From: Mogibacterium sp.
Lineage (GTDB): Bacteria > Bacillota > Clostridia > Peptostreptococcales > Anaerovoracaceae
Direction: 5' to 3'
DNA: 64,000 nucleotides
NCBI GenBank assembly: GCA_017403955.1
Contig: JAFRDH010000010.1
Coordinates: 62,001 to 126,000 of the forward strand
In this document: positions 58,906 to 60,533 of the stretch, piece after piece
How positions within the stretch are numbered: the first letter of the stretch is position 1
How the letters are laid out: the number at the start of each line of letters is the position of its first letter
The notes under the pieces: model-generated
Database searches by the model: none
Told to the model about the DNA's origin: nothing
Seen by the model: the letters and a program-made list of their open reading frames with translations, nothing else
Translations under genes and position numbers: made by a program

Positions 58906-59784
58906 TTAAGCTATTTCGATCATTTCGATCCTGAAGTTGAGCTCTTTTCCGGCCATCTCGTGGTTGCAGTCGAATGTGATATTCTCGTCATCGACTTCTG
59001 CTACAACGCACTGGAAAGGTCTTCCGAGCTGATCCTGAAGAACGACTTTGTCACCGGCAGAAAGATCTTCTGTACCCTGTACATCAGCCTTTTTGACTGT
59101 GATGATCATTTTCGGATCTGGCATCCCGTATGCTTCTTCAGGCATAAGATGAACATCTATCACTTCTCCGACTTCAAGTTCAGCGACTGCGCGGTCGAAT
59201 CCCGGGATCATCTGGCCGATTCCGCAAATGAATTCAAGCGGCTCACCGCGGTCATAAGAAGCATCGAACTGCTCTCCGTCATTGAATGTTCCTTTGTAGT
59301 GGACTTTGACTTTTTTGCCGACGTTCTTGCCTTCGAAGAGATACTGTGGCTCACCGCAGCCCGGGCATCCGAAGCATCCTGCTTCTCCGCCGTCTCCGCA
59401 TCCGCCGCAGCCGCCTTCATCATGGCTGTGATGATCGTGGCCATGTTCATGATCATGGTGATCACAATTGACTCCCGTATTAACGAGTTCTCCTCTGAGA
59501 TAAGCCTCTACAGCTTCGTCAGTATTTCCCTCTGCACCGGCGCAGACCTCGATGCCTGCTTCAGCGAGCGCATCCTGTGCACCCTGGCCCATTCCGCCAC
59601 AGATCAGAACATCGATTGCACAGTCCTTAAGAAGCCACGCAAGAGCCTCATGTCCTACACCGTTGGATCCCATAACATCAGCAGAAACGACTTTGCCGTC
59701 TTCTACTTCATAAACTTTAAAGTTCTCAGTTCTTCCGAAATGCTGAAATACATTTCCATTATCATAAGTTACTGCAATTTTCAT
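58906..59784 (-). CDS. NifX-like / His-Cys linker / SlyD-type FKBP fusion protein
   Basis: 292 residues from ATG 59782-59784 (AAGGAG about 9 bases upstream). Residues 1-102: NifX/NifB-C fold that binds iron-molybdenum-type clusters or iron (MKIAVTYDNG, VFQHFGRTENF, DVLICGGMGQGA). Residues 103-147: metal-binding linker with His at 109, 110, 112, 114, 116, 118, 119, 121 and Cys at 107, 126, 129, 137, 140, 143. Residues 155-292: FKBP prolyl isomerase of SlyD type, including the IF-domain insertion and the NHEMAGKELNF motif. SlyD is a nickel chaperone with its own His-rich tail; here the metal-rich part sits in the middle. No nif genes nearby. Predicted metal or cluster chaperone. Confidence 0.9.
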   Translation of the reverse strand: MKIAVTYDNGNVFQHFGRTENFKVYEVEDGKVVSADVMGSNGVGHEALAWLLKDCAIDVLICGGMGQGAQDALAEAGIEVCAGAEGNTDEAVEAYLRGELVNTGVNCDHHDHEHGHDHHSHDEGGCGGCGDGGEAGCFGCPGCGEPQYLFEGKNVGKKVKVHYKGTFNDGEQFDASYDRGEPLEFICGIGQMIPGFDRAVAELEVGEVIDVHLMPEEAYGMPDPKMIITVKKADVQGTEDLSAGDKVVLQDQLGRPFQCVVAEVDDENITFDCNHEMAGKELNFRIEMIEIA

Positions 59785-59825
59785 TAAAAATATCTCCTTA
59801 TCTGCTTTCAAAAACTACAATTGAT

Positions 59826-59844: not shown

Positions 59845-59853
59845 ATTATAGCA
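59845..59853 (-). promoter_or_regulatory. extended -10 promoter of the NifX-SlyD gene
   Basis: Minus strand TGCTATAAT, about 60 bases before the start codon; weak -35. Confidence 0.55.
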
Positions 59854-59876
59854 ATGAGAAAAGAATCCTATCACAA

Positions 59877-60191: not shown

Positions 60192-60533
60192 TTACTTCTT
60201 GTCCTTGTAGCGAAGCATCTCTTCGCCATCCTTGATGATCATGTCCATCTTATCCACGCTTATGTCGTAGATATTCTTGAGTGGGTCACCGTCAATAACG
60301 ATCATATCAGCATTCTTGCCTCTGGTCAGTGATCCTGTGACGTGATAAACACCGAGCGCTCTTGCCCCGTTTGCAGTTCCCGCAATGATCGCATCCATTT
60401 CGGACATGCTGCAGCAATCTACAAATCTGTGTATCTCACCGATAGCAGTGACTCCGTAAGGTGTCGAATCAGAGTTAAAGCTGTCTGAGCCTACTGTGAT
60501 AAGGTGTTTTATTGTATTTGTACCACAGTAGTG
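60192..60533 (-). pseudogene. C-terminal remnant of an amidohydrolase
   Basis: About 105 residues matching the end of imidazolonepropionase-type amidohydrolases: ITVGSDSFNSDSTPYG, AIIAGTANGARALGV and GKNADMIVIDGDPLKNI, with normal stop. The frame is closed by TGA at 60534-60536 and the remaining 300 or so N-terminal residues are missing. A short ATG-started frame (60407) could still be translated but would lack the metal site. Confidence 0.8.

Follow-up and report, generated by a model that had tools for sequence, protein, structure and literature searches.

A NifX-like domain joined through a His/Cys-rich stretch to a SlyD-type FKBP in gut Clostridia: a possible single-chain metal- or Fe-S-handling foldase

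The window analyzed here, a 64,000-nucleotide stretch of DNA from Mogibacterium sp., encodes a protein that combines a NifX-like (Di-Nase) domain, a 45-residue stretch rich in His and Cys and a SlyD-type FKBP in one chain. We propose that this fusion is a single-chain foldase handling a metal or an Fe-S cluster, which would couple loading and folding in one molecule; the probability of this reading is, in our estimate, roughly 0.45. The domain content, as given in the initial annotation, is confirmed by Pfam matches above the cut-offs and by exact residue counts. Its more general idea of one chain able to hold both a metal or cluster and a client protein also gains support, with metal and client being what we infer. 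The features are located as follows:

58906..59784, minus strand: whole ORF (292 residues plus stop), NifX-like (Di-Nase) domain, His/Cys linker and SlyD-type FKBP
59470..59784, minus strand: Nitro_FeMo-Co (NifX/ORP/MTH1175-type) domain, residues 1-105, from Pfam, solved relatives and conservation
59335..59469, minus strand: His/Cys-rich linker, residues 106-150, beginning N-C107-D-H109-H110
58909..59334, minus strand: SlyD-type FKBP with insert-in-flap region, residues 151-292, from Pfam, PDB alignments and conservation
59116..59322, minus strand: FKBP_C match (PPIase core), residues 155-223, from Pfam
59794..59799, minus strand: probable ribosome-binding site AAGGAG, 9 nt 5' of the ATG, read directly
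59845..59874, minus strand: promoter-like pair GTGATA-18-TATAAT, the count of such sites being at chance level

The gene is read in a single frame from the ATG at 59784 to the stop codon at 58906-58908. Promoter-like sites are no more frequent in the region than expected by chance (three found, compared with 2.4 in shuffled sequences). Since the only in-frame ATG, GTG or TTG codon between residues 90 and 200, ATG192, lies within the FKBP core, a separate complete FKBP product is not expected. Synthesis of two products through an internal start was therefore rejected, with no in-frame start-type codon present between residues 90 and 191, and the single product favored by the initial annotation stands. 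The frame is also intact in relatives, with the NifX start present in 103 of the 106 ORFs that reach the FKBP end; some of these loci repeat the same genome, and 90 distinct rows remain in the alignment used below, which is free of identical rows, rows shorter than 240 aa and solo SlyDs. Just upstream in the window, on the minus strand (60192-60407), lies a 71-residue ORF that by eye resembles the end of an amidohydrolase and is perhaps a gene remnant.

The N-terminal part of the protein is matched by the Pfam family Nitro_FeMo-Co (PF02579) over residues 9-96, with 71.4 bits (cut-off 26.3). Its solved relatives comprise 1rdu, 1t3v, 1o13, 2yx6 (PH0822), 2wfb (ORP) and 1eo1 (MTH1175), with E values from 3e-7 to 0.004 and a weak alignment to MTH1175. 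Among NCBIfam models, the Di-Nase end of MrpORP matches best (E 2.4e-23), with residues 1-100 aligned to positions 265-365 of the profile; this is the only section of the model covered (83 vs 450 bits), the P-loop NTPase domain of the Mrp/NBP35 type being absent. The model for NifX proper stays under its cut-off (nifX, 15.2 vs 112 bits), as does that for NifB (23 vs 343.65 bits). The Di-Nase domain of MrpORP from Desulfovibrio was reported to carry a [3Fe-4S] cluster as isolated, and the authors proposed CXHFGHCE and CDH as the ligand motifs (PMC6345978, available part). The window protein lacks both Cys residues of the first motif (F13-Q-H-F-G-R-T) and retains HFG and CDHH. Residues H15-F16-G17 and C62 are conserved in 89-90 of the 90 aligned fusions (HFG in 89), and 86 of them have C-x-H-H at the place of CDH. 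In the same part of that report, the cluster of MrpORP is described as being transferred inefficiently to aconitase and as potentially structural, and other members of the Di-Nase family as binding a Mo-Cu-sulfide cluster or thioferrate (PMC6345978). Given that relatives bind different clusters and that hand-over is poor in MrpORP, the cargo cannot be read from the fold.

The linker contains exactly eight His and six Cys, and the remaining 247 residues hold eleven His and Cys residues in total; the binomial probability of 14 in 45 is ~5e-9, for a stretch that was picked after being seen. Across the aligned fusions, its length ranges from 10 to 61 residues, and C107, H109 and H110 are conserved in at least 87 of the 90. 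Its Cys content is steadier than its His content: among 89 linkers (L041 excluded), none has fewer than four Cys, and seven have fewer than four His (0-3), a pattern more in keeping with thiol/Fe-S or soft-metal chemistry than with a store of Ni on His. The notion of a SlyD tail moved inwards, as entertained in the initial annotation, had to be rejected: of 31 close NifX-like proteins that are not fused, 30 carry at their C-terminus a His/Cys tail resembling the start of the linker (for instance ...CDHHDHEHGEGHTCGEHGCG... in L143), and none of the three solo SlyDs inspected has such a tail at either end. The 31 proteins were hand-picked from the tops of the lists as the nearest relatives, at E 1e-8 and with the start aligned, and a tail was defined as at least four His and at least one Cys past the domain; it is absent from three more distant NifX-like ORFs of the same loci that lie outside this set (L049, L052 and the 127-aa ORF, one of two, of L050). 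Because tails are found on close solo NifX-like proteins and on none of the three solo SlyDs inspected, the stretch is, judged by sequence likeness, most probably part of the NifX partner and terminates in a Gly/Cys-rich segment ahead of the FKBP. Other fusions join this unit of NifX domain and tail to HTH proteins that have, by eye, a DUF134 look (L150, L145, L174, L155 and others) and to an Mrp-like ATPase (L159). Three DUF134-NifX matches on annotated plasmids bear the DUF134 name, and it is possible that such proteins serve as metal or cluster sensors. The NifX domain of L155 falls among the SlyD fusions on a weak tree, a possible sign of domain swapping.

The C-terminal half is matched by Pfam FKBP_C with 69.3 bits (cut-off 21.1). 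Residues 156-291 align unbroken, insert-in-flap included, with the FKBP12-SlyD chimera 5i7p, a comparison made by sequence only, and SlyD chains align over residues 177-291 (3cgm), 179-289 (2kr7) and 161-291 (2k8i). We take these three structures to be those of the T. thermophilus, H. pylori and E. coli proteins, respectively. Residues Y163, F173, D174, F185, I193, F196, Y219 and F284 are kept in 88-90 of the 90 rows; mapped through the 5i7p alignment, they presumably correspond to PPIase-site positions, as judged by their roles in FKBP12. The end-to-end alignment and the matches to SlyD chains bear out the earlier assignment as an FKBP of the SlyD type with an insert-in-flap, for which PPIase and chaperone function can be predicted. 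The NCBIfam model of E. coli-type SlyD scores 62 of 174 bits and thus below its cut-off, and the chain ends with EMIEIA directly after the FKBP fold, so that the C-terminal His/Cys metal tail is absent. This tail is variable among SlyD proteins and also absent from T. thermophilus SlyD, according to the available part of the source (PMC7055735).

The genome that contains the window (2.2 Mb, 25 contigs) has one match to the protein. Full-length relatives occur in 25 of the 36 genomes of its genus, its own included, and a 26th (G011) carries the two ends of the fusion at contig ends; in the 24 other genomes of the order, both halves were never found in one match. Among named records, MAGs of Mogibacterium sp. 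from goat and sheep come nearest, together with RUG-numbered MAGs, followed by records of Blautia, Anaerostipes, Lachnoclostridium, Mediterraneibacter and others and two of Erysipelotrichaceae; the named strains with the fusion belong to Blautia, Anaerostipes and Lachnospira. A relative is encoded by 372 of 395 candidate stretches, the best 80 of which all align from residue 1 or 2 as far as residue 281 or beyond. In a sample of the class, eight of 293 genomes have the fusion, and the SlyD half (E 1e-7) is found in exactly those eight, always fused. Of the 120 genera sampled from the family of G082, taken as Lachnospiraceae because its fusions resemble the named matches, 24 carry the fusion; a single alignment spans it in 22, and G384 and G349 show it as two pieces in the same frame. 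Three have a solo SlyD, such that SlyD is fused in 24 of the 27 genomes of the family in which it was found. In a sample of the phylum searched at E 1e-50, a threshold at which more distant SlyDs are invisible, four of 398 genomes have the fusion and two a solo SlyD.

The architecture thus recurs widely, gut Lachnospiraceae included, and is not the rarity it was first held to be. The annotated copy seen, which is carried by the 627-kb plasmid of Lachnospira eligens ATCC 27750, bears a name for the FKBP half only ('FKBP-type peptidyl-prolyl cis-trans isomerase'). None of the Pfam and NCBIfam models matched is a family model of the pairing, and the literature searched, with subscription papers mostly outside reach, yielded no description of a NifX-SlyD fusion. 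While both halves are known families, their pairing therefore seems undescribed. In the alignment of 90 fusions, identity reaches 95% or more at 94 positions of the window protein. Mean identity to this protein is highest in the FKBP core (0.76), followed by the NifX part (0.73), the linker (0.60) and the remainder of the chain (0.55). In a tree of 103 NifX columns, the fusion label requires five changes, two of them forced by supported branches, with 42 of 62 inner branches open. The solo SlyDs are placed among the fusions, to which they are up to 88% identical; this placement has low support and fits an origin by fission of the fusion. Two further copies deserve mention. A paralogue in G005 (L041:6787-7554, 256 aa) retains both halves, whereas HFG and almost the entire His/Cys linker are lost. 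A full fusion with 63% identity is encoded in an 11-kb 'Bacteriophage sp.' entry from human faeces (MT836829.1, 1298-2170), a phage record that may be host DNA.

In the mechanism that we propose, the NifX-like domain would hold an iron-sulfur (or related sulfide) cluster, with Fe-S appearing more plausible than another type. The linker, as the domain's own tail with CDHH at its root, would buffer metal in the cell and act as a tether, and the SlyD half would bind an unfolded client and speed its prolyl isomerization. With these roles united on one chain, both ends could act on a single shared client, and hand-over of the metal or cluster would be coupled to folding. This reading is favored by the match to the MrpORP Di-Nase end as the best one, the conservation of HFG and C-x-H-H, the retained FKBP site, the fused state of SlyD in all eight class genomes, the steady Cys content of the linker and the lack of significant tracking with HypA, LarA, MoeA or PF00148 (see below). 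Moreover, two-hybrid contacts with Fe-S assembly enzymes were reported for the E. coli protein (with IscU, IscS and SufS, not with IscA, SufA, SufB or SufC) and for H. pylori SlyD (with MisS and MisU), as stated in the available part of the source (PMC10653786). On the other side stand the missing Cys residues of CXHFGHCE, the lack of a widely shared neighbor, a lean of PF00374 that would fit Ni and the persistence of both halves in L041 despite the loss of HFG and most of the linker, as well as the poor transfer of the MrpORP cluster and the other clusters bound by its relatives (PMC6345978, available part). The three solo SlyDs, two more in the phylum sample (uninspected) and many solo NifX-like proteins indicate that neither half strictly needs the other.

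Neither gene neighbors nor regulation pointed to a client, and both routes were rejected. The commonest neighbor clusters each occur in 10 of 93 distinct loci, nearly all of them in one subgroup of the genus, with one also near L075; the 93 include three solo SlyDs, ORFs were called mechanically, and some flanks are short. Scans of 14 fusion loci gave no Rfam match at the gathering score, three matches close to the gene in the window all fall below theirs, and an inverted repeat noticed by eye upstream in the window was not seen in the relatives compared, again by eye only.

Co-occurring genes were counted in 80 hand-picked genomes, comprising 15 of the 36 of the genus (the more complete ones, 13 of them with the fusion) as well as 24 with the fusion and 41 of the 96 without it from the Lachnospiraceae-like family. 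As related genomes are not independent, the Fisher p values are rough. In the family, HypA is found in 10/24 genomes with and 12/41 without the fusion (p 0.42), LarA in 6/24 and 10/41 (p 1.0) at 30 bits, a line of our own (9/24 and 15/41 at the Pfam cut-off of 23.3 bits), MoeA in 1/24 and 7/41 (p 0.24) and PF00148 in 9/24 and 9/41 (p 0.25). The NiFe hydrogenase family PF00374 leans weakly to the fusion (7/24 vs 4/41, p 0.08), with matches confined to the first 70 of 508 profile positions except in the fusion-less G399. Within the genus, HypA exceeds its cut-off in 13/13 genomes with the fusion and 1/2 without, PF00148 does so in 12/13 and 1/2, and MoeA is present in 5/13 and 0/2; the window's genome has both HypA and MoeA. 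None of HypA, LarA (30 bits), MoeA and PF00148 is present in eight of the 24 family genomes with the fusion, and the fusion-less G017 carries HypA and PF00148. The distribution of the fusion as a whole is thus explained by no tested Ni, Mo or nitrogenase-like system, and Ni or a Mo cluster as the particular cargo, both among those named in the initial annotation, is not supported by these counts.

These counts bear on a store and metallochaperone for Ni, Zn or Co of the E. coli SlyD kind, in which the His/Cys stretch would buffer a divalent metal, the SlyD half deliver it and the NifX fold serve mainly as a dimerizing scaffold. The density of His and Cys and the presence of HypA in every fusion genome tested in the genus would suit this explanation, as would the lean of PF00374 and the reports that several Ni or Zn bind to the SlyD tails of E. 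coli and H. pylori and that SlyD serves NiFe hydrogenase maturation (PMC7055735, available part). However, the NiFe hydrogenase large subunit was found in 0/15 genomes of the genus (E 1e-6), and HypA and LarA do not track the fusion in the family. The eight fusion genomes devoid of all four markers, the HypA of G017, the linkers with few or no His and the Rfam result likewise speak against it, and we regard it as unlikely. A general foldase that rides with a metal or sulfide store or sensor, the NifX-tail part altering its activity or place with no hand-over to a client, appears less probable again. The occurrence of the NifX-tail unit on unrelated partners, such as the DUF134-look HTH proteins L150, L145 and L174 and the Mrp-like ATPase L159, fits a portable unit of this kind, Ni reversibly inhibits the PPIase of E. 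coli SlyD (PMC7055735, available part), and the gene is an orphan with no widely shared neighbors in the 93 loci; yet this explanation gives no reason why SlyD is fused in 8/8 class and 24/27 family genomes in which it was found.

There is little to recommend a role of the fusion in maturing a nitrogenase-like or hydrogenase-like cofactor made by the NifH/NifDK-like, HydE/F and HypD/E/F proteins of the same genomes. Contig 12 of the window's genome does contain a NifH-like protein, two NifDK-like (Oxidored_nitro) proteins and HydE (L208, ~141.7-149 kb, outside the window), and PF00148 is common among the fusion genomes of the genus. However, this cluster and the fusion are on different contigs, PF00148 is missing from 15/24 fusion genomes of the family and present in G017, and fusions in genomes lacking such a cluster argue against it as the sole role. 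The statement that the stretch is without nitrogenase genes accordingly holds locally at best; the genome has a nitrogenase-like cluster, not a classical nitrogenase, given that its NifH stays under the NCBIfam nifH cut-off (321 vs 394 bits). The cluster also holds one ORF matching ABC_tran and a TM1266-like family and a siderophore-type periplasmic binding protein. In G005, NifH/NifDK-like genes run into HypF, HypD, HypE and HydF, all four over their NCBIfam cut-offs (L211:5546-17801), and in G389 into a run of genes that look by eye like HypF, HypD and HypE, with HydE over its cut-off (L212:5530-14709); these links would suit a cofactor role, and the combination of nitrogenase-like, Hyp and Hyd genes in one operon looks unusual. 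A FeMo-co or Mo-cofactor carrier as in nitrogen fixation (NifX proper) is scarcely credible, as the Pfam domain name and the MoeA genes of the genus are outweighed by the nifX and nifB scores and by MoeA in 1/24 family genomes with the fusion vs 7/41 without.

Returning to the Fe-S-handling foldase, we would venture, as a speculation that may well prove wrong, that in gut Clostridia a cluster-binding partner has taken over SlyD almost completely, the two forming an Fe-S (or thiometallate) chaperone-foldase that charges its client during a prolyl-limited folding step. If true, the fusion would unite in one molecule the link between SlyD and Fe-S that has been reported for E. coli and H. pylori. 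Little is known of how strict anaerobes deliver metals or clusters to apo-proteins as they fold, and the fusion ties the SlyD foldase to a probable cluster-binding domain in common gut genera, a hint that in some bacteria a single tool may both load a metal and fold the protein that receives it. Recognizing the fusion would also amend an annotation limited to the PPIase.

Among known systems, the non-fused Clostridia proteins of the NifB/NifX family share the domain, with mostly 50-60% identity over ~130 residues (maximum 69%), and a like tail, but lack SlyD; in the fusion, a Gly/Cys-rich end of the linker precedes the FKBP. ORP (2wfb), MTH1175 (1eo1), PH0822 (2yx6), 1rdu and 1o13 belong to the same domain family by sequence; their solved chains, however, comprise 116-136 residues and have no second domain. 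With SlyD, the fusion has in common the aligned FKBP core and insert-in-flap, the retained PPIase-site residues and a His/Cys-rich stretch on the same chain, which is located N-terminal to the FKBP, like the tail of the NifX partner, instead of forming a C-terminal metal tail. MrpORP, finally, joins the same domain family to a protein-maturation partner, an ATPase of the Mrp/NBP35 type, and shares the HFG and CDH motifs, whereas the partner in the fusion is a foldase instead of a P-loop ATPase, both Cys of CXHFGHCE are missing, and the His/Cys stretch is longer.
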